A stretch of 35,203 nucleotides of DNA from an uncultured Kangiella sp. (GTDB lineage Bacteria > Pseudomonadota > Gammaproteobacteria > Enterobacterales > Kangiellaceae), in the NCBI GenBank assembly GCA_950096615.1, contig CATNCP010000030.1:1-35203 (forward strand). Reading direction: 5' to 3'. The notes under the pieces were generated by a model. That model did not search any database. It was not told the origin of the DNA and worked only from the letters and a program-made list of their open reading frames with translations. The translations under genes were made by a program, and so were the position numbers. How positions within the stretch are numbered: the stretch's first letter is position 1; each line of letters opens with the position of its first letter. Shown in pieces: positions 3,881 to 25,318 of this stretch.

Positions 3881-6800
3881 TTAGAATTAGAGTTATCGGC
3901 TTCTTTTAAATCAGCATCGTCCTCTTCTGCACCGTTTTCTGAGTCGCCTTCTGCATTTGGCTCAATCGTTCTTTGTTGGTCTTTCGGTATAATTTCAGCA
4001 CCATCTTCTGGATGAGGAACCACGCCCTCATAGACAGCCGAACAAGCGCCACCTGTAATCAGGCCAACACCTTGCTTGAACAGCCCCGTAATAGAACCGG
4101 TGACAGCATCAAACGCTGCAGTGAAGGTTTCTATTTCAGGGGAAAGCAAGCTACCGTTAAGAGTCTGACCGTACTCACTACAGCCCTTCTCATTGATAAT
4201 ATCAAACTCAAAATCCTTAAATTCCTGCTTGCCTAAGTCAACCTGACCGTTAAATGCAAAGCGATATTTCAGCGTGGCTGCGGCGACATCTTTAGTCGTC
4301 AGGACACCATCTTTGATATCCATATCCACATTGAAATGTGAAAAGTGAGTGTCACCTTTATCAGCACCCAGCTGACTCAGTGTGTCTTGGAGGTTAACCC
4401 CCTGTGATGCCAAAAGACCAAGCGGGCCTGCTAGCAAAAAGCCTCCAACATCCAGTAAGCCGAACTTCTGAGTGTCCAAAAAGCTTCTCAATACTTTATT
4501 CACATTCAAACGGTGTAAGGTCACAGGCGTTTGATTGCTTACTAGAAGCCTACCATTAAGACTGTTCATTATGGACTCTGAATCTAGGCCAGAAAACTCA
4601 ATATCAATGTCACCTTGCAAGTTCCCTGACATCGCAACGCTACTCTCATCAGCGGGGTCAACCAGCTTATCTAGTGACAAATTATTAAAGTCAGAAATAT
4701 AATTTGACCTATAGGGCTGCTGACTCAAGTCAATCACCCATTTCGCGCTAATCGGCGCTTCATTGACCGTCATTCGCAGTGGCTCGACGGTGATTTTTTG
4801 ACCACTTTGTACCGCTGTCACAGTGAGGTTATTAACATCGTTTTGCTCTTGAGCAATTTTCTCAACCTTTAAGGCCACTAAAGTAAACGCATTCTCAAGT
4901 TGTGAACCATACCATTGGTCAATCGTTTGATGATTTTTAGCAAGCAACAATTCTGTTGCCCCTAAATATAAATTCTTCACTAAGTAGGTTTTAGAGTCTT
5001 CGCCAGCTTCTTGAGTAAACTCAGCATTAATATTACGTAACTTCAAATCGCCAATTTTCACTGTACGCAAAGCAAACTTTTGTGGCTTTTCTTGCTTTTC
5101 CAAGGTTTCCTGTTGGTCACTCTCGGGGGACTCAGTATCTACTTGCTTCAAGGTTAAATCCGCTGAGTTTGTCCGCAAGTAATCCAGCATCAAGTCTTTG
5201 TTACGCAATGTACCTTGCGACTCTAAACCAGTTACCTTTCCTTCCGGCGTAATCAGTTCTGCAACATTCAGGCTCATACGGTTAGCCGTTCCATCGAAAT
5301 GCCGCATTGGCTCACTCACCAGCTGACCTTGTCTTACTAGCGGAAAGGCTCCTAGTGCTAAATGACCATCTACTATTTGATAGCGAACATCATCATTCTG
5401 ATACTTTAAGTTCACTTGTTGCAGATCAATATTGTTAAGCTGTACGTAATCAATCGGCAAGTTATCGCTGGATGGCGACGACTGGTCAGCATCATCGGCT
5501 GCGGCATTAATCGTTAAGTCAGCGCCAGCTAGATCGACTTGCGTCAGCGTTAACTGATTATTTACATACTCAGAGCTGAGCGACAAACCTGACAAACGTC
5601 CTTGCGGTACCTCAACAGACTGAGCGCTGACTACTAGGTTGATTTGCTCTTGCCACCTATCAGGACTGGCTACCCTCCACTCGCCTTGCTCATAAAGCGG
5701 CACTCCAGACAATTCTACGTTCACCCCTTCGCCCACATAGGAGTCGTCATTAACCGCCAAATCAACAGAAGCATTATCCACTTTTAGGTTACTCAAACTG
5801 ATAGTGGAAACGGGTAATTGCCCTTTATTTTCTGATCCGGCTTCTGAAGCGGTTTCTGAGGCTGGGCCTGACTGACTATTCGCCTCACTAGACACTTGAT
5901 ATTGAATATCGGGATTAGTTATCGCTAAACCTCTAATCTCTGCAACTGAGTTTGTTAGCACCAGCGTCGAGGTCAATTTATCAATGGTGCCGTAAGCTCC
6001 AGAATAAGCTGCATTATTCAGTGCGACAGATGCTTCTTCGCCTCCGACATCAAGCGACTCAATAGCAAAAAGCGGTCGATGATTCATAATTAGAGGAATA
6101 TTTGCTAATTCAACCTCGATATCAGACACAGAGTGCTCTTCGTCATCAGTGGTAAGCTGTAGCTCGCCTTGCTCTATTGTTGCATTCGCTAAACTCGCTG
6201 CTTTAAACGGCAAATGCCAGGCGTTGCTCCCGCTAGTTTCTAGTTCACCAGTCGAAGTCGCTTCGTCTGTATTGTCGTCTGTATTAATTCTGACTAACGG
6301 CTTTATTAAGTTTAGTTTGGGTATAACAAACTGCCCTTGCTTCAACTCTCCTTCTAAGCTTAAGGATTCAAAGCCCAAAATATCAGACTGCATCGATTGT
6401 GAGCTTAAAGTGAAGTTACTGTCTTGCGCTTTGTAGAAAGCAGGCCAGTCTAACCATAAGGCTTTTTTATCTTTTACTAGTAACAACTCAGAAAACTCTG
6501 CTTCAATCGCCTTTATCGACAACTCTTGCTTATCTTGAATGGCTAGATCGGTTTTGCCTAAGTCGATAGTTTTAATGACGACATCACTAAAAGGCAGGTC
6601 CAGCTCGTCTTTTTCAGGCGTTACCGCTGCAGTTACCTTTTCATCTTCAGCCGCGGCAGCAATCCCTTGAGAGTGGTCTAAAAGATTAATGTTGATAGAC
6701 GACTGTCCCGAATTGATTTCATCGATGATCAGTCTTTGCTCTTCGATATGAGCATTTAAACTCAGTTGATTAAGCTCTGTTTTATCTGAACTCAATGTTT

Positions 6801-7389
6801 TTAGTTCAGCTTGGAGGGTGGTTTTACTGGCTTTAACGAGTCGTTGTAAATCTTCAAACAGTAAAAAACCATCTTCAGCCACAGGTAAATTTCTGACTTT
6901 AACATTCGCGCCTTCGGCAAAAAGCGACACTTCGCCTCGATACTCAAAGTCGAGATTATTAACATCAATAGCTGCGACATCGATAAAGTCAAACGGTAGT
7001 GAGGTTGCCTCAGCCCTTTCTTCACTCTCTTTAAGCTTAAACTCGAACGGGTAGCGTACCTTTGCATTAGTTAGCTGGAGCAACTCAACCGTCAGTTGGC
7101 TTGACCATAAGTGGCTATAGTCGAGCTCTCCTTCTAATTGCTCAAACTGGATGAAGGGGTCATCCTTGGGACCTATAACGCTGGAACTCACCTTTACAGT
7201 TCCGCTAAGTAATGACACGTCCAGCTCACCGACTTGAACCTCGACGCCTAGGTTTTCCTTTAAATAATCCTCAAGGTAGGATTCGGAATTTATGATATAG
7301 ACGAAAACGGAAACAGCCAAAAACAGCAATACAAAGAGCCCTAACAGAACCCACAATATCCTTTTTAACCATTTCCAACTTTTCGTCAT
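3877..7389 (-). CDS. AsmA-family periplasmic protein
   Basis: The 1170-residue product has one N-terminal membrane segment at about residues 10-33, followed by a very long region of alternating beta-strand character and no further membrane helix. This is the architecture of AsmA-like (AsmA/DUF748) proteins, which are anchored in the inner membrane with a large periplasmic body. The C-terminal region (about residues 960-1120) has the usual pattern of the family, including LAGPLGLLASQG, DVDMDIKDG-like and LNGSLLSPEI segments. Known relatives such as AsmA, TamB and YhdP affect outer-membrane lipid transport; that role is inferred here. Two cysteines near the C-terminus (NEKGCSEYG and TGGACSAVY) could form a disulfide, and the last 45 or so residues are hydrophilic and very acidic. 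The gene begins 9 bases after xthA. Confidence 0.8.
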   Translation of the reverse strand: MTKSWKWLKRILWVLLGLFVLLFLAVSVFVYIINSESYLEDYLKENLGVEVQVGELDVSLLSGTVKVSSSVIGPKDDPFIQFEQLEGELDYSHLWSSQLTVELLQLTNAKVRYPFEFKLKESEERAEATSLPFDFIDVAAIDVNNLDFEYRGEVSLFAEGANVKVRNLPVAEDGFLLFEDLQRLVKASKTTLQAELKTLSSDKTELNQLSLNAHIEEQRLIIDEINSGQSSININLLDHSQGIAAAAEDEKVTAAVTPEKDELDLPFSDVVIKTIDLGKTDLAIQDKQELSIKAIEAEFSELLLVKDKKALWLDWPAFYKAQDSNFTLSSQSMQSDILGFESLSLEGELKQGQFVIPKLNLIKPLVRINTDDNTDEATSTGELETSGSNAWHLPFKAASLANATIEQGELQLTTDDEEHSVSDIEVELANIPLIMNHRPLFAIESLDVGGEEASVALNNAAYSGAYGTIDKLTSTLVLTNSVAEIRGLAITNPDIQYQVSSEANSQSGPASETASEAGSENKGQLPVSTISLSNLKVDNASVDLAVNDDSYVGEGVNVELSGVPLYEQGEWRVASPDRWQEQINLVVSAQSVEVPQGRLSGLSLSSEYVNNQLTLTQVDLAGADLTINAAADDADQSSPSSDNLPIDYVQLNNIDLQQVNLKYQNDDVRYQIVDGHLALGAFPLVRQGQLVSEPMRHFDGTANRMSLNVAELITPEGKVTGLESQGTLRNKDLMLDYLRTNSADLTLKQVDTESPESDQQETLEKQEKPQKFALRTVKIGDLKLRNINAEFTQEAGEDSKTYLVKNLYLGATELLLAKNHQTIDQWYGSQLENAFTLVALKVEKIAQEQNDVNNLTVTAVQSGQKITVEPLRMTVNEAPISAKWVIDLSQQPYRSNYISDFNNLSLDKLVDPADESSVAMSGNLQGDIDIEFSGLDSESIMNSLNGRLLVSNQTPVTLHRLNVNKVLRSFLDTQKFGLLDVGGFLLAGPLGLLASQGVNLQDTLSQLGADKGDTHFSHFNVDMDIKDGVLTTKDVAAATLKYRFAFNGQVDLGKQEFKDFEFDIINEKGCSEYGQTLNGSLLSPEIETFTAAFDAVTGSITGLFKQGVGLITGGACSAVYEGVVPHPEDGAEIIPKDQQRTIEPNAEGDSENGAEEDDADLKEADNSNSN

Positions 7390-11170: not shown

Positions 11171-11737
11171 TCATTTTTGCCACTGGGGCTCTTGTGTCGA
11201 AGCAGCTCTACCGGTTAAACGTGCGATAATAAAGAAAGCGTCCGATAGACGATTTAAATACACCAAGAGTTCTGTTGATACAGTTTCTTCTATACTTAAC
11301 CGCACCACATCTCGCTCAGCTCGCCTTGCCACACAACGCGCAAAGTGAGCGTTAGCAGAAGGCAAGTTTTGCCCAGGGATGACAAACTCCTTAAGCGCTG
11401 GTAGCGTTGCATTCCATTGCTCAATAAAGTGCTCAATATTGTCAGTAGCGGAACCGGATAGGAAGTGATTGCTAGGCGATGCTAACTCCCCTCCTACGTT
11501 AAATAACTCGTTTTGAATCTGCTGACAAAACATCTGGATATCGTCAAACTCGGAAAAGCTTGCCTTATCAAGATGTGGTAAAGCAGCCAAAAACATCCCA
11601 ATAGCCGCATTCAGTTCATCCACCGAGCCTATAGCATCGATACGTAACGATGACTTGCTGACACGTTTACCATCAGCCAAACGTGTCGTGCCTCCGTCAC
11701 CAGCGCCAGTTGTTATCTGTGTTAAGCGATTAGCCAT
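11171..11737 (-). CDS. pduO: PduO-type ATP:cob(I)alamin adenosyltransferase
   Basis: The 188-residue protein has the three signatures of PduO/MMAB-type adenosyltransferases. TTGAGDGGTT (residues 9-18) binds ATP. ARRAERDVV (137-145) contains the arginine and glutamate of the active site. LNRLSDAFF (161-169) is the C-terminal block. The enzyme transfers the 5'-deoxyadenosyl group of ATP to cob(I)alamin, giving coenzyme B12, in the cytoplasm. It is unrelated in fold to the BtuR/CobA type. It lies 17 bases after the btuB-like receptor gene and before the DUF6580-like gene, under the riboswitch at 13831-14022. The start has GGAA about 8 bases upstream. Confidence 0.92.
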   Translation of the reverse strand: MANRLTQITTGAGDGGTTRLADGKRVSKSSLRIDAIGSVDELNAAIGMFLAALPHLDKASFSEFDDIQMFCQQIQNELFNVGGELASPSNHFLSGSATDNIEHFIEQWNATLPALKEFVIPGQNLPSANAHFARCVARRAERDVVRLSIEETVSTELLVYLNRLSDAFFIIARLTGRAASTQEPQWQK

Positions 11738-11754
11738 AGAGTTCCACGCTGTCT

Positions 11755-13746
11755 TTAAAAACGATAACTCAGTTTAGCATAACCATTTCGCCCATTCGCA
11801 GGGTAATAGCCGCCAAATTGCGCATAATCGATATATTCTTTATCCAACAAATTATCAACACGAATCCCCAGTGTTAACTCCTCCCAGCGCCAGTTTATCG
11901 CTGAATTCAGGACAACATGACTCTCAATTTTGGGTAGAGCATTCGCCACATCACCTTCTTGGTAACGGTTTCCGCGATAATTAACTTCAACATACCAATT
12001 AGCGACTGTATCAATCTGCCAGTCAAACCAGCCGTTAACCGTATGCTTAGAAACGCCTGGAATATTGTTGCCCTGACTACTTGGTTCGCCCCGCTTTATT
12101 TCAGCGTCGACATAATGATAGTTGATGCCAGATGTTAGTTTAGAAGTAATATCCGTCTGATAATCAACAATAAAGCCTATTCGCTCAGACTCACCACCAT
12201 TCACATTAGCGCCTGGAAAGAAAGCTCCTGGTGGCGGCGTTGCCGATGGGTCAAAGAAAATTTCATCATCCAGCTCTAACTGGTAAGCCGATAGCTTTAA
12301 AAAACCATGGCTCAGCGTTTTCTCATAACCCACTTCCAATGAATCACCAGTTTGTGGCTCTAGGCCAATCACACCATCTGCTGTGTAAGATTGCTCATCG
12401 ACCTTGGCGAAACGGTAATTCTTACTAAATCGTGCATAGCCTTTGCTGTGTTTATCTAACTGATGACTCAACCCTAAATCGTAAGCCGTAGCAGAATTTT
12501 TTAACTTTATGCCTGCTGGATAAGCAGTAAAGTCCACTAAATCGTCCTCAACTCGTGCGTATCGCGCTGCGAGTTCAATGTCTGTGTTTTTAGATAACGG
12601 TAAAAACAACTGCGAGTAAAAGCTTTCGACTTCCTGCTCATTGCTACGCCCCAGCAACGAAAAATCATATTCCGCATGGTCATAATCAATACCGTTAATC
12701 CAGTCAATCGAACCACTGTCAGTCTGCCACTCGCCTTTAATTCGTGGATAGATACTCCACTGAGTTCTATTGGTGGTATTCACTGTGGTGGTTGGAAATC
12801 CAACAAAGCTATTGATACTGTCGATGTCAGAGTCTAAATAATTGACATCAATCGCATATTTCCAGTTATTATCGATTGTTTCTTGACCAAAAATACGCAG
12901 CACATCTTGCTGAGTATCCACATAATCATTGGCAAACTCTGGGCGTGACTGCGTTGGTTCACCCAAGTCTGATTCTAAAAGCGCACCGGGGATGTTTAAG
13001 TCTTCTCGATTTGTATTAACCTCGAACAGCCAGTCCGATGTCTCAGTTAAATAGTTAAACTTAACGGCTAACTGATGTTGCTCACGCTCGTTATGATCAC
13101 GGTAATTATCAGTCTCTAAATAGTTCGCGCTCAACAAAAATGACCAATCCTGATTCAGCGCATGATGTAGGTTCACATTGCCTTGCACAGTACCGTAATT
13201 ACCCGCAATGAGACTGGCATTCGATTCTTTACTCTTGCCAGAACGTGTCACGATATTGATCACACCAGCGACCGCTTGATCACCATATAAAGTGCTAGCC
13301 GCACCCTGAATAATTTCAATGCGCTCAATGTCCGAGACTGATACAGACTCCAGATCGGGCGCGGCAATATCCGTGTAATTCAAACGACGACCATCGACTT
13401 GAATCAATACATTATTACTCGCCTGTTCAGCTGAAATACCACGCATACTGATCGTCGTTTTGCCGCTGACAGACGATACTTGGACGCCAGCGACACGCTT
13501 TAATAACTGGACGAGTTGTGTCGCGTTGCTGCGCTCGATATCGTCTTGGGAGATGATGGTGATGTTGGTTGGCAGTCGAACATTGCGTTCTTTAAAACGC
13601 GACGCTGTAATAACGACTGTATTATCTTCCCTAACGTCCCCTTCTGTCCCAGGTTGCTCTGCTGCTTTAACCGTTGCGCTTAAGCCTAAAGTCGCCGTGA
13701 CGGCGATAGCGACTAACGTTTGAGTCGCTAATGTTGTTTCTGTCAT
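11755..13746 (-). CDS. btuB: TonB-dependent outer-membrane cobalamin receptor (BtuB-like)
   Basis: The 663-residue product has a signal peptide (about 1-28, ending SATVKA), a TonB box (TVVITASRF, 43-51), a plug domain (about 55-170, with VLIQVDGRRLN, ERIEIIQG and STLYGD) and a beta barrel ending in an aromatic residue (LSYRF). BtuB binds cobalamin at the cell surface and passes it to the periplasm using TonB energy. The substrate assignment rests on the cobalamin riboswitch directly upstream and the adenosyltransferase directly downstream. The signal peptide is odd in having no lysine or arginine before the hydrophobic core. An in-frame TGA at 13758-13760 rules out a longer start. A GAAG/GAAGAG-like ribosome-binding region precedes the ATG. 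Confidence 0.9.
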   Translation of the reverse strand: MTETTLATQTLVAIAVTATLGLSATVKAAEQPGTEGDVREDNTVVITASRFKERNVRLPTNITIISQDDIERSNATQLVQLLKRVAGVQVSSVSGKTTISMRGISAEQASNNVLIQVDGRRLNYTDIAAPDLESVSVSDIERIEIIQGAASTLYGDQAVAGVINIVTRSGKSKESNASLIAGNYGTVQGNVNLHHALNQDWSFLLSANYLETDNYRDHNEREQHQLAVKFNYLTETSDWLFEVNTNREDLNIPGALLESDLGEPTQSRPEFANDYVDTQQDVLRIFGQETIDNNWKYAIDVNYLDSDIDSINSFVGFPTTTVNTTNRTQWSIYPRIKGEWQTDSGSIDWINGIDYDHAEYDFSLLGRSNEQEVESFYSQLFLPLSKNTDIELAARYARVEDDLVDFTAYPAGIKLKNSATAYDLGLSHQLDKHSKGYARFSKNYRFAKVDEQSYTADGVIGLEPQTGDSLEVGYEKTLSHGFLKLSAYQLELDDEIFFDPSATPPPGAFFPGANVNGGESERIGFIVDYQTDITSKLTSGINYHYVDAEIKRGEPSSQGNNIPGVSKHTVNGWFDWQIDTVANWYVEVNYRGNRYQEGDVANALPKIESHVVLNSAINWRWEELTLGIRVDNLLDKEYIDYAQFGGYYPANGRNGYAKLSYRF

Positions 13747-13798
13747 TGCTAGATCTCTTCACTTCTAGCGGGCATGAGTATTATTTCATTACTGTCTA

Positions 13799-13826
13799 CC
13801 GAGCAAGAGCCCACCGATCTGCTCAG
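13799..13826 (-). promoter_or_regulatory. Hairpin in the riboswitch expression platform
   Basis: Immediately after the aptamer, CTGAGCA and TGCTCGG can form a 7-base-pair stem with one G-U pair around a 14-base loop on the btuB messenger. The loop includes CTCTT, which is complementary to AAGAG just before the btuB start. Loop-to-ribosome-site pairing is therefore a possible translational switch. This is inferred from complementarity only. Confidence 0.35.
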
Positions 13827-13830
13827 CACC

Positions 13831-14022
13831 TAACAAGGCCGGTCTCCGGACTTAAAAGCATCTCACTCCTTCACCTTCCCAAGCATACGTTCAGTTGTAT
13901 AACTCAGTGGTTTATTAATAACTCACTCGTCTATTAATAAGAAAGAAGCGCTCTTTATTACCGTTGCGGGGGCAGTACCAGAACCACACTGGTTTCCCGA
14001 TTAATCCCATGGAACCTTGTTA
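13831..14022 (-). ncRNA. Cobalamin riboswitch
   Basis: On the minus strand, the leader of the btuB-like gene holds a complete cobalamin aptamer. The 3' B12 box AAGTCCGGAGACCGGCC is at 13853-13837. The central GCCCCCGCAACGGTAA lies at about 13973-13958, and GGGAAACCAG lies at about 13998-13989. The ends pair as a perfect 8-base P1 stem (CCTTGTTA at 14015-14022 on the plus strand with TAACAAGG at 13831-13838). The core reads CAACGG where many members have CAACTG. In known cases adenosylcobalamin binding turns the downstream gene off. No T-tract terminator follows, so control of translation initiation is more likely. Confidence 0.95.
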
Positions 14023-14117
14023 GCCAATAATGACGTCGAATGTTGTTTTGAGGGAGCTTTATCTTTTCTAGGGGATAAATAACCATAAATAGGTTCACCC
14101 TTCTCCAACTCGGTGGT

Positions 14118-14146
14118 ATTATAGCCACAAGCTATTTAGACGTCTA
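14118..14146 (-). promoter_or_regulatory. Candidate promoter of the riboswitch-btuB operon
   Basis: On the minus strand TAGACG (14146-14141) and a perfect TATAAT (14123-14118) are separated by 17 bases. Transcription would start near 14111, about 90 bases before the riboswitch aptamer. The -35 matches consensus at four of six positions. Confidence 0.5.
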
Positions 14147-14169
14147 TACATCTTTTAGTTTATTGCATA

Positions 14170-14198
14170 TTTCCGATAATTCAGTGACTCGTTATAAC
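14170..14198 (+). promoter_or_regulatory. Weak candidate promoter of metH
   Basis: TATAAC at 14193-14198 fits a -10 element, with TTTCCG at 14170-14175 as a poor -35 at 17-base spacing. The resulting leader would be about 33 bases. An AT-rich stem (CTAAAA at 14207-14212, TTTTAG at 14218-14223) lies within it. No methionine repressor or other operator was recognised. Confidence 0.3.
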
Positions 14199-14237
14199 AA
14201 CGGGTTCTAAAAACAGCTTTTAGGTTTCGCATAAGCA

Positions 14238-17200
14238 ATGACAATACCAAACGAAAACAACTTAAATATTAGAGAGTTACTAAAGCAGCGCATTCTCGTT
14301 CTGGATGGTGCGATGGGCACCATGATCCAGCAATATACCCTAGAGGAAGAGGATTACCGCAGCGAGCGATTCAAAGATTGGCATTGCGACGTCAAGGGTA
14401 ACAACGACCTTCTGAGTCTATCTCAGCCGCAGATCATCAAGGATATTCACGAAGAATACCTTAAAGCTGGCTCGGACATTATCGAAACCAATACTTTTAA
14501 CGCCACTCGTATTGCCATGGCCGATTACGACATGGAAGACTTGTCGGCGGAGATAAATTTTGAATCCGCACGCCTAGCCAAAGAAATCGCAGACGAATAC
14601 TCGACGCCTGATAAACCCCGCTTTGTGGCTGGCGTGCTTGGCCCGACAAACAGAACCTGTAGTATTTCACCTGACGTTAACGATCCCGGCTTTCGAAACG
14701 TCAGCTTTGATCAATTAGCCGATGCCTATTACGAGTCAACCGATGCTCTAGTTAGAGGTGGCGCGGACTTACTGTTGATCGAAACCATTTTCGACACGCT
14801 TAACGCCAAAGCAGCTATTTATGGTGTGAAAAAATACTTTGATGATCACAAGCTAGAATTGCCGATCATGATCTCAGGTACTATTACTGACGCCTCTGGC
14901 CGAACCTTAACCGGACAAACGACCGAAGCTTTTTACAACTCAGTGCGCCATGCCAACCCTATTTCGATAGGTTTAAACTGTGCGCTCGGCCCGAAAGACT
15001 TGCGCACCTATGTCACCGAGCTCAACCGCATTAGTGAGTTTAATATTTCAGTTCACCCTAACGCAGGCTTGCCCAATGAGTTCGGAGGTTACGACGAAAC
15101 GCCACAAGACATGGCACACGAAATGATGCAGTGGGTCGATGATGGCATGATTAACATTATCGGTGGTTGCTGCGGAACCACACCTGAGCATATTGCCCAC
15201 TTCGCAGAATTAGTGCAGCACAAACAACCTCGCACGCAAGCCAATCAAGATAAAAAGTGTCGCCTGTCGGGGTTAGAGCCTTTACTGATAGATGAAGACA
15301 GTCTATTTATTAATGTCGGCGAGCGAACCAACGTCACCGGGTCTAAACGTTTTTTGCGACTTATCAAAGAAGACGATTACGAAACCGCGATTGAAGTTGC
15401 GTTGCAGCAAGTAGAAAACGGCGCGCAAATTATTGACATCAACATGGATGAAGCCATGTTGGACTCTACCGCCGCCATGCAGCGTTTTTTGAACTTGATT
15501 GCGTCGGAGCCAGATATCAGCCGCGTGCCGGTCATGTTGGATTCGTCAAAGTGGGAAGTGATTGAAGCAGGCTTGAAATGTATTCAAGGCAAAGGTGTGG
15601 TCAATTCTATATCACTGAAAGAAGGCGAAGAGATTTTCCTTGAACAAGCCAAACTCGTCCAACGCTACGGCGCCGCCGTGATTGTGATGGCTTTCGATGA
15701 ACAAGGTCAGGCTGATACCTTTAAACGCAAAACTGAAATCTGTGCGCGGGCTTATAAGATCTTAACCGAGCAAGTGGGCTTCGATCCTTGTGACATTATT
15801 TTCGATCCCAATATTTTCGCTATCGCGACCGGTATTGAAGAGCACAATAATTATGCGGTCGATTTTATTGAAGCGACCGAATGGATCAAAAAGAATTTAC
15901 CACATGCCATGATTTCCGGTGGCGTATCCAATGTATCGTTTTCCTTCCGTGGAAACGACAAGGTGCGAGAAGCGATCCATGCTGTATTTTTATACCACGC
16001 CATTAACGTTGGTATGGACATGGGGATCGTTAATGCAGGACAACTGGAAGTTTATAGCGAAGTGCCTCTCGAGCTGCGAGAGGCGGTTGAAGACGTGGTG
16101 CTTAATCGTAAAGACGATGCAACGGATACTCTGTTGGAGCTGGCAGAGCAGTATCGAGGCGATGGTACGGGTGAGAAAAGTAAACAAGATTTAGAGTGGC
16201 GAAGCTGGGAAGTTAACAAACGTCTACAGCATTCATTGGTTAAAGGTATCACTGAATTTATTGATGAAGATGTCGAAGAATCTCGCCAAGGGTTTGAGCG
16301 GCCACTGCATGTAATTGAAGGGCCCTTGATGGATGGTATGAATGTGGTCGGCGATCTGTTTGGCTCGGGACAAATGTTCTTACCCCAAGTGGTTAAGTCT
16401 GCTCGTGTAATGAAAAAAGCAGTGGCTTACCTCTTCCCCTTCATGGAGGAAGAGAAAAAACGTTTGAATCTTGCTGACAAGCCTAAAGGCAAAATTCTCA
16501 TGGCTACAGTAAAAGGCGACGTCCATGATATTGGTAAGAACATTGTAGGCGTCGTGTTGCAATGTAATGGTTATGAGGTCATCGATCTAGGCGTCATGGT
16601 ACCGACCGATAAAATTCTTGAAACCGCCATTAGCGAAAACTGCCACATCATTGGATTGTCAGGCTTAATCACGCCGTCACTAGAAGAAATGGTCAATGTG
16701 GCGAAAGAAATGCAACGCCGAGGCATGGACTTGCCACTACTGATTGGCGGCGCGACCACATCAAAAATTCACACTGCGGTTAAAATTGAACCCCAATATG
16801 AGCATGCAACCCTGTATGTCGCTGATGCCTCGCGAGTAGTTGGCGTTGCCAGCAAACTATTAGGCGATGACAAAAACGCTTTTGTTCAAGAAAACAAAGA
16901 CGAGTACGAAAAGCTTCGAGTGCAACGCGAACAGCGTATGAAAAAGAAGACATTGACTTCGCTACATGAAGCCAGAGAATTCGCGCCCGATATCGACTGG
17001 AATGCAGAAGACATCGTTAAGCCGTCTTTTCTAGGTACAAAAGTATTCTATGACTACCCTCTTGAGAACTTACTTGAACGAATCGACTGGACACCTTTTT
17101 TCCGCTCATGGCAGCTTGCAGGCAAGTTTCCGAAAATTCTAAAGGATGAAGTTGTCGGTGAAACCGCCACTAAACTGTATCAAGATGCGCAGGCCATGCT

Positions 17201-17933
17201 GAAAACCATCATCGACGAAAAGTGGTTAACTGCTCGTGCCGTTATTGGTTTTTATCCAGCGAACTCTGTTAGTGATGACATCGAAGTTTATCGCGATGAA
17301 CAGCGCGATAATACAGCTTATAAATTGCACCACCTGCGCCAACAAAAGCAAACTCGTAATGGCAAGTTTAACCATTGTCTTTCAGACTTTATTGCGCCTA
17401 AAGAAACCCAACTGAACGATTATATTGGTGGATTCGCTGTCACCGCAGGGGTTGGCATTGATGAGCATGTTGAGCGATTTGAAAAGAACCATGACGACTA
17501 CAATTCGATTCTTCTAAAATCGCTAGCGGATCGTTTGGCAGAAGCATTTGCTGAGAAAATGCATGAGCTGGTCAGAAAGAAGTACTGGGGCTATGCCAAA
17601 GATGAAAAACTGGGTAACGAACAATTAATTTCAGAAGAATATCAAGGTATTCGTCCTGCTCCAGGCTACCCTGCATGCCCTGATCACACTGAAAAAGGAA
17701 CCCTGTGGGAGATGCTAAAGCCAGATGAAACTATCGGGCTTAATATCACCGAACACTTTGCCATGTACCCTACTGCTGCAGTATCCGGCTGGTACTTCGC
17801 GCACCCGCAGTCCAAATATTTCGGTACAGGAAAAATTGAAAAAGACCAAGTCGAGGATTATGCCAATCGAAAAGGTTGGTCGTTAGAGAAAGCAGAACAA
17901 TGGCTTGCTCCGTCCCTCAACTACGATCCATAA
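14238..17933 (+). CDS. metH: Cobalamin-dependent methionine synthase
   Basis: The 1231-residue protein matches E. coli MetH (1227) in length and domain order. The homocysteine-binding zinc site has C248 in LNCALGP and C311/C312 in [10 protein letters not shown]. The pterin domain begins near [13 protein letters not shown] (about 357-370). The cobalamin domain carries DVHDIGKN with the axial ligand H763. The C-terminal reactivation domain has [12 protein letters not shown] (1139-1150). It transfers a methyl group from 5-methyltetrahydrofolate to homocysteine through cobalamin, making methionine in the cytoplasm. It is divergent from the B12 uptake operon but not itself behind a riboswitch. Its last 37 codons are duplicated in diverged form at 23805-23918, so the 3' end may have been acquired by recombination together with the macroglobulin gene. 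The Shine-Dalgarno sequence is weak. Confidence 0.97.
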
Positions 17934-17980
17934 CTAAACCAATAAATATTCTCCACGTTAAGAAGTATGGCTCACTCAAC

Positions 17981-20900
17981 CTACTCCACAGTTATCTTCA
18001 TAGAGTTACTAGAGCCATATATATCGTCATCATACATTTCCTCAATAGAAGTTGGTAACGCTGAAAACTTCCCTCGATGTGTCGCCTGAGAAATATACTC
18101 TATCTGATGTTGACCTGATGGTAATATATCGGCATAAAACTTTGCTGTCCTAACTCCAACTTGCTTCTCATTGAAATACCAACTTGACTCTAGCTTATCA
18201 AAAATAGCTTCTGGAGCTGATGTTGCCAGCGATTTGTCCTTTGGAAAAAAACCGCCCGGAACATAATCAGTTACAGCGACAAACCTTCTTTGGATAGGGT
18301 TGGTTATTTTAAGTTGAACCTTGACCCAGTCTCCTCGCTTGAAGGAGCCATCAGTTACTTTCACCCATTTCCCCTGCTTAAAAACGGAATAGACTCTTTC
18401 AATAGAAAAGCCTTTTGATTCAGACTTAGAGCTTAGACCGTCTACTTCATATTCAACAGTCGCTTCAAGGTAGCCGCTCTCTCCGCTCGGCCTATCCAGC
18501 TCAAGCTGACTGTTGCCCCGAGTATCTATCATAAGGGGCTTAGAGGTATTGTCTGTACCAACAGCCAGAGCCTGTTTTTGAATTTTAAATTGAAATTCAG
18601 AGGACTCGGACGGACTCTCATATTTATTGATATAGTCCGCAATGGCGATAGTACAGATGGCATTGCTAATCGTATTTCCAAAGTCACCTTTCTTATCACG
18701 GCGATACTCTAATGCAGTGCGCACAAATTTATGAGTGATGTTTCGCGATATATTCGAAGCTGTCATCCCCGATATAATATTGCAGTAAGTTTTTGCATTA
18801 AAATTAAAGTAGCTCCAATCTAGTGATTTATCATCCTCTAAAACTAGCTTTTTATTCGTCTCTATCGTATCTGCTAATATTTCTTCACTTAGCGTTTTGC
18901 TTTCATCAGCAAGTTCTTCATACTGTGCTAAAGACTCTAGCAAAATGCCTTTAGTAGCATGGCTAAGCTCTTCTCTTGAATTATAGGCTAGCTCAACGTG
19001 ATGTTTTGCTACCTTCTTTGATTCACTGTAGAAACTCAAAGAGATGGCAAGAAGCGCTCTCATCTCCTCTTCTATATCTCCCCTTTTTAATTCATCATAA
19101 ATAAACTTCTGCAGCTTTTCTAGAGCAATTGGGGTAAGTTCATAACCCTGTAAACGAAGTTTCTTTGCCGCATATAATGTATAAATACTTAAGAACTGAC
19201 TAACGTTATAATCATCTGGTTTAAAAAAGGCCATACCGCCGTTTGGCGCTTGAAAGTGAAGCATGGTATTAAGCGCCATATTGATGTTCATCCTTAGCCT
19301 AGACTCATCCTTCTCCGCATAATGACTAGAATTTAACTGATAAGCCGCTACTAAAGCTCTGCTTAACGTCTGTTCCCAGCAGTTATGGGGATAGTGTTGC
19401 ATATATTCATAGGCACCCGACAATTGCGAACTCATGCTGGATGACAAAGAAAGAGTTAACTCAGCATGATTATGAGCATTTTCTGGTATAGCCTCCAATA
19501 GCAGTGACTTTTGTTCTGGAAGTACGCTGTAATAAGTTTGGCTTCTCTCAATAGCAGTACCATACACAGGAATTTTGCTTAACACCCCGTCCTCTGCCCC
19601 CTCTGCAGATGACAACAGCGTTACAGTAAGGCTCTTTGTTTCAGGCACAGAAGCTCTAAACTTTACCTGTTTTTCATCAAATGGCGATACAAAATTGAAA
19701 GTCCCGATCGCTACACTCAGAACTGATTTATCTTCAGCTTTAACCTCAGCTGCAACCTCAATTTTGGGCAAAGTTTCTTCAGAGCGTGAATTTACCGTAG
19801 CATTACCCTCAAACTGGTCGCCAACAGAAACCTGCCTAGGCATACTCAGTCTTGACTCTAAGCTTTTTTGTGTTTTTACAGTGGAAGTTTCCGTCCAGAT
19901 ATCTCCACTCAAATCAGTTCCAAGGACTATGACTTTCCAGCTGGCTAAATTATCAGGAAGCTCAGCCTTTATCGTTTTCTCTTCGCCAGCCCTCACAATG
20001 ACGTTTGGGTTCCAATAAGCAGATTCTTTAAATAGTGTTCTCAACTGGGCCATGCTTATAGTTAAGTCACCCACTTTAACTCGCATACTGTTAGGACGAT
20101 GCAAACTTAGCAGGTTTGCATTAGGTGTATTCTCTTTTGGAAACAATGAAAAAGGTCTGCTCTCGGAAAAGCCTATATCTGAGCGTTTCAAACGAGATCC
20201 AGTGACCACAATTTTTTCTGCTTCGACTCCGTAGTCTGCCTCTCTATTTAATCTATCTCTTTCCATACTTCGCATAACGTTACTTGAGTATAGCTTTTCA
20301 GATAATGTGTACCTTGCAGGGTTTTCCCAAGATATTTTGTTTGGCGACAACTCTGACGAGTAGATGTCGAAGAAATCCCTGTTTTCCACTTGGTTGATAA
20401 TACTTTCATCAATAATGGCAATGGTATATTTCATCGAGTCACTATGATTATCAATAGTAATGTTGACTGACTCTCCAGGCTTTTTTTTGTCACTATCAAC
20501 AGCTAGATCAAATTTCTTAGGCTTCTTTGGAGGTGTCACCGTAATTCGCTGGGTGATGCTTGGGGAAAAATCTACCTGCACGGGATCTTTTGGGAGTACT
20601 TCTAAATCCCTAGGGAAAAGATTAACGCTAATATCAACGCCAGGAGCCATATCCTCACTAATTGCTAGTTTATAGCTTCCAAGGCTCTTGGTTACGTTTA
20701 AGACTTCATGCTTAATCTTTTTATTACGATGAACGACAATTAAAGCTGTAGCGTTTTTAAAAGGGTTACTGAATGATATATCGGCGATATCACCTACCTC
20801 ATAAACCCTTTTGTCAGCGTGGATTGTCATCTCAGCCGTATCGGATTTATCGGCACTATCGTCATAAAAGTATTGTTTCAGGCGAGAAGTTTGTTTTTCA

Positions 20901-23536
20901 CCATCAGGATAGACAATAGTAGCCAAGATATCATAATAGCCATTGACCTCAGGCATAAATGTACAGGTTTGATTAGTTCTTTGAATACATCTGATGCTTT
21001 CTATTGGATCTTCATTCTCGTCTTCCCATCGCCACGGAGAGGTAGACTTCTGTAGAGAAAAATCAACGTCTATATTATTTCGCTTTTTCCCATCTGGAGT
21101 GACAACAATAGTCTCAATATTAAATGGCTCGTTTGAAGAGCTAGACCAGCTGGAGTCTTTCACTCCTACAAAGTATGGCCTACTGGCGTAAGGTATTTTA
21201 ACCTCTCGGCTTACAACTCCTTCTTCACTAGCCCCGATAAGGGATGACTGGACAGTTACTGTTCCATATCTCACATTAGAATCAAGGATAGGTAATGCTT
21301 TGAGCGCAACTCCATTTTCATCTAACTTGCCACTTGAAAAAAATCTTGCTTCGCCACAGTCAATGCAATCATTAGCATCGAAGCGGTACTCATTAAAGTC
21401 TGACAGTTCATTTTCTATGCCAGCCTCTTCCACTCGCATCATAACTTCGACTTGGCCTTTTGAATAAGGGCCGCCAGAAAAGTACTCGGCCATAGTTTTG
21501 ATATCGACCCTATCGCTGTCAAATAACGACTCTTGCTTAATTTCAGTGCTTAATTTGACCGTGTTAGGTTTATAGTTAGCTACTGTGAAATAAGCTAAGC
21601 TATCAAAGTCGTCTGGCCCAGTAATACTTAAGTAATACTCTCCATCATCAATAGTATCAGGCAGTGTTACCTGCCCTGAATAGGTACCATACTCATCGAT
21701 CTTCGGATCGTTGACCTTATAAAAGCTATTACAATCATCGATTCTATAACAGTCATAGTCCCAGCCCCCTAGGTACAATAGTGACTCTTTTTTTAACTCT
21801 GGAATTACGAGCTTTTTATCATGAAGCTCTCGTAAATAAACCGTGTAGTGAACCACTTCACCAGGTCGATATATTGGCTTATCAGTAATTCCCCATATCC
21901 AGGCGTCTCCGTATAAAGAATAAACGTCTCTGACATAAGCAAGTTCACCTGATATGTTGCTTTTACTCCGGTGATTGCTCGTTAATAACACTTGTGAACG
22001 CCATTTGTCATCGAAGCGAAGAATTACTTTATTACCGCGATAACCCGGAGTATTCTTAAAAGCCTTCACAGCTTCACCTGTAGTTGTTGCAACCCCCTGC
22101 CTATTAGTTTGCAGCCAGACATTGTAAAGCTGCTTATCACCATCAAATATACTCGCTGCAAACTTTGTATTTCGAAGTGGCTTACCCGATTTTAAGTCTG
22201 TAACGAAGACGAGTAGCTCGTGATCACTTGTTGTCAGATGGACGTTGTAACGAGACTTTTGAATGGATAAAGGGCCAGAGGAGTCAGCCTCTCGATATAC
22301 AATCCTACCTGAGACCTGAGTAATATCCGAAAAGTCTTCAAGGCTAACTTTTGTAGAAACTACCGTATTTTTGCCAGGAGTCGTTTTTATTTCTTTATGC
22401 TGATAAGTTGGCTCATAGTTTAGGAAATCAAACTCTAATTCCACATTGTCTATATTTAAAGTATGCACTGACAAAGAAAAAGGATCATCAACGGTTAGGA
22501 CCTCTTCTGCATGAAAATTATGTGCCTTGGGCAAAAAATCATTAGCATTTACCGCAATATCTGAACGATTTAACTGTCGCCCAAAGATATCCTTCAATTC
22601 GGATAGGCACCCCAGTCTTATATCTTTATTAGCTTTGGAAACAGATAAGGTAATCTCTGAATTGATACGGTTATAGACGCTATAATCTGTGACTTCGTCA
22701 ATTGATGTTAAACAAGTTTCAACGGATGACTCATCAACAGGCACATTAAAATTAAGCCTAATACTGTTACTAGCCGTGCAGGGCTCATTATACTTTACCG
22801 GATCACGCCACCCCTCACGGCAGCTTCGCCCTAAATACTTAAAAGCTCCATAAGCTTCAAATTTTTCATCGAAAACTTTTTTTATTGATTGCAATTTGCC
22901 ATGAGGCGTTCTGATGCCTGCCGTTTGAAGTAACTCGTATGTTCGGTTGAGTTTCAACTCACTTTTCGGGGTTAATATCCAGCCTGTGTTAATGTTGTAT
23001 TCTGAAAGTTCATTTATATCGCTCTCTTTATCTGACTTTGCGGTCTTTAACTCAATCAGTTCGCCTTTATTGCTTTTTAGGAAAAGGGACTCTTCCAAAC
23101 TTGCGGGTTCAACCGATATATTAGTGTAAGCATTAAGTATTGGGTAAGTAGGCGTCTCCCAGCGTTCCACCCAAACACTGCGTACCTTCGGACGCACCGT
23201 CGAAAACTGATGCCTTATAGAAGAAACTTTCTCTCCATCAACATAGATCAACCCTTCTTTTAGAATTAATTCATAATTTGATGCAGGCGCTAGTGCAGAG
23301 GCTCCCTCCAAGTCACAACGTAACTGTTTCCTACTAACCCATACCCATATACAGTTAGAACTTGGTTGTATACTAATTGGAATTTCTTTAGCTGGTGTCC
23401 TTTGCACACCCTTTTCAAACTTAATTTTTATGTACTGATCACCATAATATTGATCAATGTCTACTGTTGTGTCAGCTGCGAGATTGCCAGATAACGCAAA
23501 CCCCATCAGAGCGGTGAGAAGTAACTTTATTGTCAT
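17981..23536 (-). CDS. Large periplasmic alpha-2-macroglobulin family protein
   Basis: The 1851-residue protein has a cleavable signal peptide (about 1-21, ending NLAA) with no lipobox cysteine, so it should be soluble in the periplasm. Macroglobulin repeats include the hallmark TDKPIYRPGE near residue 550. The A2M block (PDNLASWKVIVLGTD) is near 1190. The thioester motif CWEQ is intact at 1386-1389, and the C-terminal VTDYVPGGF region matches the last macroglobulin domain. Family members trap proteases that cut a bait region and then attach covalently through the thioester. The predicted bait region, about 280 residues before the thioester, contains IVVTGSRLKR (1109-1118), which looks like a TonB-receptor N-terminal motif. 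It is longer than E. coli YfhM (about 1650) and lacks the often adjacent pbpC. It is visibly AT-richer than metH. AGGGAAAAC precedes the ATG. Confidence 0.93.
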   Translation of the reverse strand: MTIKLLLTALMGFALSGNLAADTTVDIDQYYGDQYIKIKFEKGVQRTPAKEIPISIQPSSNCIWVWVSRKQLRCDLEGASALAPASNYELILKEGLIYVDGEKVSSIRHQFSTVRPKVRSVWVERWETPTYPILNAYTNISVEPASLEESLFLKSNKGELIELKTAKSDKESDINELSEYNINTGWILTPKSELKLNRTYELLQTAGIRTPHGKLQSIKKVFDEKFEAYGAFKYLGRSCREGWRDPVKYNEPCTASNSIRLNFNVPVDESSVETCLTSIDEVTDYSVYNRINSEITLSVSKANKDIRLGCLSELKDIFGRQLNRSDIAVNANDFLPKAHNFHAEEVLTVDDPFSLSVHTLNIDNVELEFDFLNYEPTYQHKEIKTTPGKNTVVSTKVSLEDFSDITQVSGRIVYREADSSGPLSIQKSRYNVHLTTSDHELLVFVTDLKSGKPLRNTKFAASIFDGDKQLYNVWLQTNRQGVATTTGEAVKAFKNTPGYRGNKVILRFDDKWRSQVLLTSNHRSKSNISGELAYVRDVYSLYGDAWIWGITDKPIYRPGEVVHYTVYLRELHDKKLVIPELKKESLLYLGGWDYDCYRIDDCNSFYKVNDPKIDEYGTYSGQVTLPDTIDDGEYYLSITGPDDFDSLAYFTVANYKPNTVKLSTEIKQESLFDSDRVDIKTMAEYFSGGPYSKGQVEVMMRVEEAGIENELSDFNEYRFDANDCIDCGEARFFSSGKLDENGVALKALPILDSNVRYGTVTVQSSLIGASEEGVVSREVKIPYASRPYFVGVKDSSWSSSSNEPFNIETIVVTPDGKKRNNIDVDFSLQKSTSPWRWEDENEDPIESIRCIQRTNQTCTFMPEVNGYYDILATIVYPDGEKQTSRLKQYFYDDSADKSDTAEMTIHADKRVYEVGDIADISFSNPFKNATALIVVHRNKKIKHEVLNVTKSLGSYKLAISEDMAPGVDISVNLFPRDLEVLPKDPVQVDFSPSITQRITVTPPKKPKKFDLAVDSDKKKPGESVNITIDNHSDSMKYTIAIIDESIINQVENRDFFDIYSSELSPNKISWENPARYTLSEKLYSSNVMRSMERDRLNREADYGVEAEKIVVTGSRLKRSDIGFSESRPFSLFPKENTPNANLLSLHRPNSMRVKVGDLTISMAQLRTLFKESAYWNPNVIVRAGEEKTIKAELPDNLASWKVIVLGTDLSGDIWTETSTVKTQKSLESRLSMPRQVSVGDQFEGNATVNSRSEETLPKIEVAAEVKAEDKSVLSVAIGTFNFVSPFDEKQVKFRASVPETKSLTVTLLSSAEGAEDGVLSKIPVYGTAIERSQTYYSVLPEQKSLLLEAIPENAHNHAELTLSLSSSMSSQLSGAYEYMQHYPHNCWEQTLSRALVAAYQLNSSHYAEKDESRLRMNINMALNTMLHFQAPNGGMAFFKPDDYNVSQFLSIYTLYAAKKLRLQGYELTPIALEKLQKFIYDELKRGDIEEEMRALLAISLSFYSESKKVAKHHVELAYNSREELSHATKGILLESLAQYEELADESKTLSEEILADTIETNKKLVLEDDKSLDWSYFNFNAKTYCNIISGMTASNISRNITHKFVRTALEYRRDKKGDFGNTISNAICTIAIADYINKYESPSESSEFQFKIQKQALAVGTDNTSKPLMIDTRGNSQLELDRPSGESGYLEATVEYEVDGLSSKSESKGFSIERVYSVFKQGKWVKVTDGSFKRGDWVKVQLKITNPIQRRFVAVTDYVPGGFFPKDKSLATSAPEAIFDKLESSWYFNEKQVGVRTAKFYADILPSGQHQIEYISQATHRGKFSALPTSIEEMYDDDIYGSSNSMKITVE
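20183..20212 (-). other. TonB-box-like IVVTGSRLKR motif inside the macroglobulin gene
   Basis: These bases encode residues 1109-1118 of the macroglobulin, preceded by glutamate-lysine and followed by SDIG. The same kind of sequence (xEEIVVTGSRIxR) typifies the N-terminal TonB-box region of many proteobacterial TonB-dependent receptors. It is not expected from macroglobulin folds. Its position agrees with the bait region, estimated from the distance to the thioester. Confidence 0.6.
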
Positions 23537-23584
23537 TGTTTTCCCTATTGTAATTTTTTAACAATCTATGACTGATTTTTAATC

Positions 23585-23646
23585 ACTATATTGGCCTTAA
23601 ATTGAAGTTGCAAGCAACGTTATAAAATAGCAAAGCCTGCACTCAA
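23585..23646 (-). promoter_or_regulatory. Candidate promoters of the macroglobulin gene
   Basis: Two overlapping candidates occur on the minus strand. One is TTGCAA (23613-23608) with TATAGT (23590-23585) at 17-base spacing. The other is TTGAGT (23646-23641) with TATAAC (23624-23619) at 16-base spacing. Each matches consensus at four of six and five of six positions. The leader would be about 40 to 75 bases. Confidence 0.4.
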
Positions 23647-23804
23647 GGCCTTAGTGATTAAGGTTATTGAAGATTAATGGCATAGTTTATAAACTAATTT
23701 AGAATAGGATTAAAGACACCTTGAGCTCCAGCACAACTACAACAGCCTCAATAATGAGCTATAAATACTAGTCGATAAGTGTTTTTTTGGACTAGCATGA
23801 ATGC
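23647..23804. other. Gene-free stretch at the presumed insertion junction
   Basis: I see no gene, RNA or transposase relic here. The only structure is an inverted repeat, CTAGTC (23768-23773) and GACTAG (23790-23795), enclosing a run of seven T and ending 9 bases before the metH remnant. It could be a weak terminator or part of the junction. Confidence 0.4.
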
Positions 23805-23918
23805 TTTGACACAGGAAAAATTGAAAAAGCTCAGGTTGAGGATTATGCTCAACGCAAAGATTGGAGCCTTGAGAAACCTGAGCAAGGGCTGCCACAGTCC
23901 CTAAACTACGATCCTTAA
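23805..23918 (+). pseudogene. Remnant of the 3' end of metH (diverged duplicate)
   Basis: These 114 bases encode 37 residues and a TAA stop, running from FDTGKIEKAQVEDYA to SLNYDP. They align without gaps to the last 37 codons and stop of metH (17820-17933): 29 of 37 residues and 87 of 114 bases are identical by hand count. Eleven codons differ only synonymously, which indicates divergence as functional genes before the duplication. The remnant has lost the tail's WLAP (here GLPQ). Homology stops sharply at both ends and no start codon or upstream metH sequence is present, so it is not expressed as a protein. Confidence 0.93.
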
Positions 23919-23940
23919 TTAACTGAGCAGATGTTGAACT

Positions 23941-24231
23941 ATGAACATAAACACTAAAAGGGGTGTTTTTTGGTTGGGCGGTATTGGTTTGATTTTGTCC
24001 ATTCCCCTCGTTGCTATGCAATTTACCCAAGAAGTGAATTGGTCACTCAGCGACTTCTTCTTGTTTGCAGGCTTACTTACTACCGTCGGGCTTATCTACG
24101 AGCTGGGGATACGCAAGCTCAGTTCTTCGATTAAGCGCAATCTTGTTACCCTATTATTACTCCTTACCTTCTTACTTATGTGGGCAGAGCTTGCGGTCGG
24201 TATTTTTAGCACACCTTTTTCCGGCTCATAA
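23941..24231 (+). CDS. Small three-helix membrane protein of unknown function
   Basis: This 96-residue protein has three hydrophobic segments, at about residues 9-28, 37-55 and 66-88, separated by short charged loops (ELGIRKLSSSIKR between the second and third). I do not recognise the family. It starts 22 bases after the stop of the metH remnant on the same strand. If the macroglobulin gene was inserted at the end of metH, this gene was probably the original downstream neighbour of metH. The ribosome binding site is weak (GAGCAG far upstream), which lowers confidence in the exact start, but the coherent membrane pattern supports a real gene. Confidence 0.6.
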   Translation: MNINTKRGVFWLGGIGLILSIPLVAMQFTQEVNWSLSDFFLFAGLLTTVGLIYELGIRKLSSSIKRNLVTLLLLLTFLLMWAELAVGIFSTPFSGS

Positions 24232-24288
24232 AAACGTTAACCTTAGCATGAAGTAAAGATTTAACTCACTGCTACCGACTTATGCATG

Positions 24289-24312
24289 TGGGGGATTAGC
24301 TTGAATCCCCCA
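24289..24312. terminator. Perfect GC-rich hairpin between convergent genes
   Basis: TGGGGGATT and AATCCCCCA form a perfect 9-base-pair stem around the loop AGCTTG. It sits between the ends of the small membrane protein gene and the convergent oxidoreductase gene. Neither strand has a T-tract after it, so it may stabilise 3' ends or act with Rho rather than being a classic terminator. Confidence 0.45.
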
Positions 24313-24331
24313 GCTAAACTGACGATTAAGC

Positions 24332-25318
24332 TTAATGAGTTATAACGACTTTTCCCGTCACCTTGCCACTTTCCAGTTGGGTGTGAGCTTTACCAACTTC
24401 TTCTAACTTGAACTCATGCTCATCCAGTATTGGTGATAAATGACCACCATCTACAATCTGCGTCAAAGTCGTTAAAATCTCCTGATGCTCACCGCGTTTA
24501 GTGTTGTGAATCATCGGAATTAGCATAAATACTACGTGTAATGACAACCCTTTCATGTGAGCAGTTGATAAATCCATCTCAACCAAGGAAACGGTCGTCG
24601 CTATCTGTCCATTTAATGCTGCAGCTTCAAAAGAATTCCTAAGATTTTCTCCACCAACAGAATCAAAGATCACATCAAAACCTTTTCCATCCGTGTACTG
24701 TTCAACATACGAGGATACTGATTCGTTAGTATAATTGATTCCCGTACCACCTAAGCTCTGAATAACTTGAATATGCTTATCGTTGCCCGCAGTAGAATAA
24801 ACCTCTGCGCCAAAATATTTAGCTAACTGGATAGCAACATGCCCGACACCACCTGCACCACCATGAACCAGTACTTTTTGCTCTTTGCCCACACCAGCTC
24901 TAATTAACCCTTCATAAGCAGTAATACCCACTAAAGGTAACGCAGCAGCTTCACGCATTGATAATGACTTAGGTTTATGCGCCACCAACTGAGCGTCAGC
25001 AACCATGTATTCAGCGAGACTCCCTTGTAAGTCACCTAGCCCGCCAGCACAGCCGTAAACTTCATCTCCGACTTTAAACTGCCCGACACCATCACCGACT
25101 TCTTCCACCACGCCTGCAAAATCCATGCCTAAGATAGCAGGAGTTTTTGGAGAAAACGGTAAGTCTGCGCCCATAGAGCGAATCATCGTATCGACCGTAT
25201 TGACGCTAGAAGCTTTAATATTAACTAACACATGTCCAGCTTTAGCCGAAGGCTTTTGTATATCGGTTAAATCAAATTGTTCTGCGTCGCCGTATTGATT
25301 AATTACCATTGCTTTCAT
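24332..25318 (-). CDS. Zinc-independent medium-chain dehydrogenase/reductase (quinone oxidoreductase-like)
   Basis: The 328-residue protein begins MKAMVINQYG, typical of the quinone oxidoreductase branch of the medium-chain dehydrogenase superfamily. GMDFAGVVEEVG is at 64-75, and the NADPH-binding Rossmann motif GGAGGVGH is at 153-160. The structural zinc cysteine cluster of alcohol dehydrogenases is absent. Such enzymes reduce quinones or alpha,beta-unsaturated carbonyls with NADPH in the cytoplasm; the substrate is unknown here. The gene is divergent from a LysR regulator with 99 bases between the starts, a common arrangement in which the regulator controls its neighbour, perhaps in response to reactive electrophiles. 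AGGA lies about 8 bases before the ATG. Confidence 0.9.
   Translation of the reverse strand: MKAMVINQYGDAEQFDLTDIQKPSAKAGHVLVNIKASSVNTVDTMIRSMGADLPFSPKTPAILGMDFAGVVEEVGDGVGQFKVGDEVYGCAGGLGDLQGSLAEYMVADAQLVAHKPKSLSMREAAALPLVGITAYEGLIRAGVGKEQKVLVHGGAGGVGHVAIQLAKYFGAEVYSTAGNDKHIQVIQSLGGTGINYTNESVSSYVEQYTDGKGFDVIFDSVGGENLRNSFEAAALNGQIATTVSLVEMDLSTAHMKGLSLHVVFMLIPMIHNTKRGEHQEILTTLTQIVDGGHLSPILDEHEFKLEEVGKAHTQLESGKVTGKVVITH

Follow-up and report, generated by a model that had tools for sequence, protein, structure and literature searches.

Prophage e14 of Escherichia coli K-12 carries an integrase gene. It is described as a 15-kb prophage that entered icd by site-specific integration. The last part of icd, a housekeeping gene, then comes from the prophage DNA, and what was the native end persists past the insert as a pseudogene fragment. 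A second described route of gene gain is homology-facilitated illegitimate recombination (HFIR), reportedly set out for transforming DNA by de Vries and Wackernagel in 2002. HFIR has one homologous and one illegitimate end and couples insertion to deletion; the account gives microhomologies of 3-10 bp, deletions usually of the insert's size, and inserts of ~1 kb on average with similar deletions (PMC3240628). The locus analysed here lies in a window of 35,203 bp from an uncultured Kangiella sp. (assembly GCA_950096615.1, contig CATNCP010000030.1, positions 1 to 35,203). The end of metH, the gene for cobalamin-dependent methionine synthase, was found twice in this window, on either side of a gene of the bacterial alpha-2-macroglobulin family. 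As at icd, the gene appears to have received its present 3' end from incoming DNA, with the native end left beyond the insert. As in HFIR, a foreign block has homology on one side and none that is clear on the other, no recombinase gene is present and a small deletion may have occurred. The scar at metH is real and is well explained by a foreign import in which the gene was restored and the native end pushed aside. The kind of event is already known and the instance at metH is new.

The last 37 codons and the stop codon of metH (17820-17933) have a second copy at 23805-23918 in the same orientation. The copies align without gaps, with 87 of 114 bases and 29 of 37 residues identical. Eleven codons differ synonymously and eight non-synonymously. 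An initial annotation, made from the letters of the window alone, had described this repeat beyond the macroglobulin gene. Its coordinates were exact and its hand counts of residues, bases, gaps and synonymous codons were all reproduced. A BLAST search of the last 300 bases of metH against the same genome returned two places, metH itself and 23811-23918 (E = 2.9e-18). With this E value the repeat is not due to chance. Its full ungapped extent is 123 bp (17815-17937 and 23800-23922) at 76% identity. The longest common run, judged by eye, is 19 identical bp on the plus strand (17826-17844 and 23811-23829).

The second copy, termed the remnant, consists of 37 codons, a stop codon and a few further bases on the plus strand (23800-23918). 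Its translation is CFDTGKIEKAQVEDYAQRKDWSLEKPEQGLPQSLNYDP followed by the stop, and another in-frame stop lies three codons upstream of the CFDTGKIEKAQVEDYAQRKDWSLEKPEQGLPQSLNYDP stretch. The conserved WLAP, already reported as lost, is replaced by GLPQ. In the nearest relative examined (G002) the metH end and the sequence following it aligned as one 415-bp piece to window positions 23800-24214, at 87.7% identity. The metH site of G002 is uninterrupted and no macroglobulin match was found in that genome at E 0.001. Over the first 60 bases past the stop codon the remnant and G002 agreed at 52. The remaining 12 rows, among them metH of the window itself, reached only 12-22. This downstream sequence (23919-24231, plus strand) contains a 96-aa open reading frame (ORF; 23941-24231) with 82% four-fold-site identity to G002. 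Because the metH end of G002 runs directly into the sequence that follows the remnant, the remnant is the native metH end at its ancestral place, and 17934-23799 is an insert.

The two copies differ from the G002 metH end in different ways. The remnant is identical to it at 101 of 114 bases, and the 13 differences are spread over the first, second and third codon positions as 5/4/4. The working end has 24 differences, spread as 5/1/18. The third-position share is thus 4/13 in the remnant versus 18/24 in the working end (Fisher p = 0.015). Since its differences from G002 are even over the codon positions, the remnant is in decay. The working end is an ortholog kept under selection in another lineage. 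Random changes had been expected of a decaying copy. They were seen in the remnant when compared with G002, but not when compared with the window's own metH (6/5/16).

The genus set comprised 20 genomes, that of the window (G000) included, and macroglobulin matches were taken at E 0.001. No macroglobulin match was found in 17 of the 19 other genomes, and G007 and G018 had only partial matches at 24-25% identity. metH was present in 13 of the 20 genomes and unmatched in seven, one of which is only 55% complete. A second metH end was found only in the window's genome and in none of the 12 others with metH. The insert had no BLAST match in stretches of 16-17 kb from G002, G019, G004, G006, G007 and G014. 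No relative among the 19 carried the macroglobulin gene in this place without the remnant.

The source of the working end was examined by counts of matching bases and by trees. Over the last 117 bases it shared 99 with G004, 96 with G019, 92 with each of G002, G006 and G007, and 88 with the remnant, which itself shared 103 with G002. Segment trees were built from 9 of 13 rows, without G001, G010, G013 and G014, and the tree of the tail also contained the remnant. Approximately unbiased (AU) tests are given with uncorrected p values from a set of six tests. On the 114 bases of the tail, a clade of the working end and the remnant was rejected (p = 0.033). A clade of the working end and the G002 end was also rejected (p = 0.006). 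A clade of the remnant and G002 was not rejected (p = 0.084), although the free tree lacked that pair and its supports were low. By these results the working metH end comes from a lineage other than that of the remnant and G002. They bear out the view of the initial annotation that two orthologous metH ends had diverged in separate lineages, as the copies are not each other's closest relatives. Its proposal that foreign DNA with a metH end and the macroglobulin gene recombined at metH and displaced the native tail is supported by the AU tests and the empty site of G002. The foreign end that completes the gene was placed at 17710-17933 (plus strand). Its left edge is uncertain (95% interval 17562-17841). 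Codon identity to G002 is 0.515 (17/33) at 17709-17817 and 0.471 (16/34) in the tail.

The gene as a whole is intact and apparently mosaic. metH (14238-17933, plus strand) encodes 1231 aa, and five domains of cobalamin-dependent methionine synthase exceed their Pfam cut-offs in the product. A non-native-looking block (12451-17069) covers the 5' part of a TonB-receptor gene (11755-13746, minus strand) and metH codons 1-944, the left edge of the drop in identity being at ~12.45 kb. Identity to G002 at four-fold sites was 40% for 12451-13746 and 46% for metH as a whole. The other genes compared had 53-82%, except for an ORF of 1170 aa at 34%. Between the window and G019 the values for the same two regions were 46 and 42%. 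Identity to G002 falls to the level seen between lineages in 12.45-17.07 kb, and does so once more beyond 17.71 kb. Same-amino-acid codon identity to G002 was 0.538 at 14238-17070 versus 0.690 in the backbone. A native-like patch follows on the plus strand (17070-17709), with a codon identity of 0.691. It gave a log-likelihood (lnL) gain of 9.4, which was reached by 27 of 2000 shuffles. In the tree of 17100-17819 the window was joined with G002 (support 94/93), and a group of G002, G019 and G004 without the window was rejected (p = 0.043). In the tree of 14238-17100 neither this group (p = 0.295) nor the pair of window and G002 (p = 0.122) was rejected. The upstream block is probably also foreign, as part of a mosaic, from the same or another event. 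The earlier claim of a foreign metH end stands for the end itself but is probably too narrow, with foreign DNA likely to extend over metH codons 1-944 and into the TonB-receptor gene at its 5' side.

The best switch from native to foreign sequence was at 17709, ~100 bp before the start point of the remnant. Its interval was obtained with assumed rates, and recalibrated rates gave the same optimum. A crossover inside the repeat would require a switch in the shared tail, at or after 17817, and forcing it there cost 1.85 lnL. A small deletion at the join is mildly favoured by the switch point. The implied loss of metH sequence is ~100 bp at the best switch point and 0-250 bp within the interval. 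Homology to native metH ends at ~23800.

One-sided homologous import of a foreign metH end with the macroglobulin gene, following the HFIR pattern and displacing the native end, is held to be probable, if only modestly so. DNA from an unsampled, fairly close lineage would have entered the cell and recombined at metH. The working end is about as distant as G004 and G019. Pairing on the metH side would have been by homology, and the gene would have stayed whole and gained a foreign 3' end. metH is intact and chimeric, with the switch to foreign sequence inside it, and this argues for homologous recombination on that side. At the other junction, which lies upstream of the macroglobulin gene, the incoming sequence would have been joined at ~23,800 inside the last 40 metH codons of the host, a join needing little or no homology. 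The host metH end would have been severed from its gene and would then have drifted as a pseudogene fragment. The DNA was presumably linear and paired on one side, with the macroglobulin gene presumably being what selection kept. The tail and the upstream block may or may not have arrived in one event. Natural transformation of Bacillus subtilis is described as placing several separate donor segments close together (PMC13344027).

A number of points weigh against one-sided import. The tail trees are built on 114 bases only and have low supports. The tree of the whole gene (13 rows) does not reject the window with G002 (p = 0.404), and this speaks against metH being simply foreign throughout. 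The native-like patch requires either a mosaic import or two events, and part of the drop in identity may stem from changes in the metH of G002. The 1.85 lnL amounts to only ~6:1 against a crossover at the shared end. The insert of ~5.9 kb or more is several times longer, and the deletion of at most ~0.25 kb several times shorter, than the averages described for HFIR. No donor sequence was found, so no microhomology is readable at 23,800.

Site-specific integration would explain the anatomy as that of e14 in icd, where the element completes the gene and a pseudogene fragment of the native end is left behind. A circular element with a replacement metH end at its attP and the macroglobulin gene would have integrated, its integrase having been lost or supplied in trans. 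The icd fragment left by e14 is given as 163 bp (PMC6379469). An attP with replacement sequence is described as usual for such integrases, with identity blocks of up to ~250 bp (PMC10111431). The native-like patch just upstream and the absence of a large deletion would fit, as would the 19-bp identity near the start of the shared end. However, the same 19 bp are present in the metH of G002 and G019, so this run is no evidence of an att core. The 15-kb prophage also differs from the insert, which has one large cargo gene and no integrase-sized ORF other than macroglobulin among its listed ORFs of at least 80 aa. Two others touch 17934-23799. The first, of 147 aa, lies within the macroglobulin gene but on the opposite strand, and the second, of 97 aa, spans 23737-24030. 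The comparison drawn in the initial annotation, to 3'-end integration with no visible integrase, is apt as a description. No integrase was found among ten ORFs scanned near metH in G002, G019 and G007 (Pfam, 1e-5); these were proteases, sensors, regulators and transporters or had no match at that threshold. The lack of a second metH end in all 12 relatives with metH also speaks against an integration site. Searches of mobile elements gave little. Relatives of the metH tail in viral contigs amounted to 36 pattern matches, none of which was confirmed. A phage collection gave 14 matches to the metH end, of which four were annotated as methionine synthase in records of >100 kb and ten lay in unannotated records of 1.6-13.8 kb. 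Plasmid matches came from 49 records, and among the 40 listed the named features were methionine synthase. No paper on metH as such an integration site was found by title, and a control gene end gave second copies as often (see below). Site-specific integration is regarded as rather unlikely, though it is the main rival to one-sided import.

The same product could arise without an integrase by single-crossover (Campbell) integration of a non-replicating circle with a metH end and the macroglobulin gene, by RecA alone. The crossover position this demands is only 1.85 lnL worse than the best. Against it, the homology is limited to ~120 bp, today 76% identical and poor for RecA, and the upstream non-native block is unexplained, so that Campbell integration is thought doubtful. 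Another possibility is that the native metH end was duplicated in tandem, or that the copies are old paralogs, and that the macroglobulin gene was inserted afterwards. This would account for two clearly homologous copies in the same orientation. The AU test rejected the clade of the two copies, the empty site holds one copy, the remnant and its downstream sequence are closest to G002, and the working end is closest to G004 and G019. Duplication is hardly credible on this evidence. Replacement could also have occurred in G002, with its metH taken from elsewhere and the window ancestral. The tree of 14238-17100 leaves the replaced party unsettled (p = 0.122 and p = 0.295), and for the upstream block this explanation may be partly true. 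Against this, the remnant and the sequence that follows it have their closest match, a collinear one, in the metH end of G002, and the insert is in none of the other 19 genus genomes. As an account of the whole locus, replacement in G002 is very improbable.

Under the preferred one-sided import, the cargo is the macroglobulin gene (17981-23536, minus strand), which encodes 1851 aa and is convergent with metH. It is the only large gene of the insert (17934-23799), which is absent from the orthologous site of relatives. Like other bacterial alpha-2-macroglobulins it has bMG10, A2M_BRD and A2M domains, all above Pfam cut-offs; MG2 and bMG5 were below. A CWEQ motif is present at residue 1386 and in all three relatives read. 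It is a CxEQ motif of a putative thioester. The start of the protein is signal-like as read by eye. From its family the product is presumed to be a protease trap. It differs from known members in having no PDB sequence or NCBIfam match at E 0.001, and its best full-length relatives are 32-33% identical, with only the two distant partial matches within the genus. Matches at E 1e-5 were found in 8 of 40 genomes of the taxonomic family, that of the window included, and the near-full-length relatives among these were G033, G025 and G035. Pleionea sp. CnH1-48 has a relative with 31% identity. Over the order, 4 of 295 genomes matched at E 1e-20, again with the window's own. No metH was found near macroglobulin homologs in the stretches read. 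These cover four loci, two of which are probably a single record and one of which is a contig of 6.5 kb. No relative was confirmed in viral contigs, and plasmid matches were limited to seven records at 20-27% identity, none covering 80%. In residues ~1105-1125 there is a IVVTGSRLKRSD stretch, which presumably resembles the plug region of TonB receptors. VTGSR was read at a similar place in one of three relatives.

The GC content of the insert is 0.39-0.41, that of the left flank 0.41-0.48 and that of the right flank 0.39-0.43 up to 27.5 kb. The macroglobulin gene has a third-position GC content (GC3) of 0.366, and its eight neighbours have 0.35-0.51. Since GC is like that of the right flank and GC3 is within the range of the neighbours, composition does not show foreignness. 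A comparison of 17934-23804 with its flanks had been proposed as a check on foreign origin. GC below the left flank agreed with such an origin, but the likeness to the right flank and the GC3 of the neighbours did not.

Arrangements with other cargo between two metH ends had also been proposed as a search, and the architecture was seen in two other genera. When a metH-end profile (A1) was run on 394 genomes of the order, 297 had at least one match and five of these had two, namely G000, G025, G054, G326 and G382 (4/296 without the window's own). In G025 and G054 the second copy is at a contig edge. G382 and G326 have a whole metH, cargo and a second metH end on one contig. In G382 (L088 4902-6612) the last 173 bases of metH are repeated ~1.4 kb downstream with 170/173 identical (98%). 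An ORF of 106 aa, with a start that is signal-like by eye, lies among small ORFs between the copies. In G326 (L089 6836-8848) a degenerate copy of the metH end, with indels and stops, is found ~1.6 kb on, and a Fic-domain gene lies between. Two short stretches past this far copy match the post-metH sequence of G238, and a similar stretch is also present inside the insert; a native origin of the far copy of G326 is suggested as a lead only. No ORF of >201 aa was found between the copies in either genome (ORFs of at least 60 aa). Counting the window, three genera of the order show a displaced metH end in the same orientation behind a whole metH. The cargoes in between are unrelated to one another, being a macroglobulin gene, a Fic-domain gene and the 106-aa ORF.

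As a control, the C-terminal domain of valS (PF10458) was searched in a draw of the same size (394) and gave two matches in 5 of 385 genomes. The comparison with metH (5/297) gave a Fisher p of 0.75. There is no sign of a hotspot at metH, as the valS end gives second copies as often. In a draw from the class (A2, 370 genomes) two matches were found in 3 of 239, namely G000, G652 and G424. G652 has two full-length metH genes. In G424 the second match is a fragment of 27 residues that includes a stop and lies on a different contig.

Other features of the window were noted. A cobalamin adenosyltransferase gene, the TonB-receptor gene and the cobalamin-dependent metH adjoin at 11171-17933 and are likely to form a B12 cluster. 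The ORF of 1170 aa (3877-7389) had no Pfam match at 1e-5 and no NCBIfam match at 1e-10. Its four-fold-site identity was 34% to G002 and 31% to G019, and it may be either a second block of replacement or a gene that evolves fast. In G002 the 96-aa ORF is followed by a block of ~9 kb that encodes a protease of the subtilase family and a large sensor kinase together with its regulator. A subtilase gene and sensor genes also lie past metH in G019, and G004 has ORFs of similar size. The window has ~100 bp at 24231-24332 and no protease block beside the site where macroglobulin was gained. The regions compared were window 24231-24332, L079 2849-11308 and L029 4164-19469.

A 2018 comparison of Kangiella genomes is described as finding ~4 category X proteins per genome, which was taken as little gene transfer. 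The import at metH explains how one species of the genus came by a large gene resembling those of protease traps. Among the 19 other genomes of the genus, matches to this gene are at most distant and partial. It left a scar of gene gain with no mobile-element gene, in which the displaced end orients the event and marks the native copy. The housekeeping gene metH survived because the foreign DNA restored it. Scars of the metH type may arise at many genes. Integrase-less cargo units with a replacement gene end, as a recurrent route by which secreted or defence-type genes are added behind unbroken housekeeping genes, are an unlikely generalization at present. Counts of such scars over whole genomes could measure how often genes are imported by one-sided recombination.

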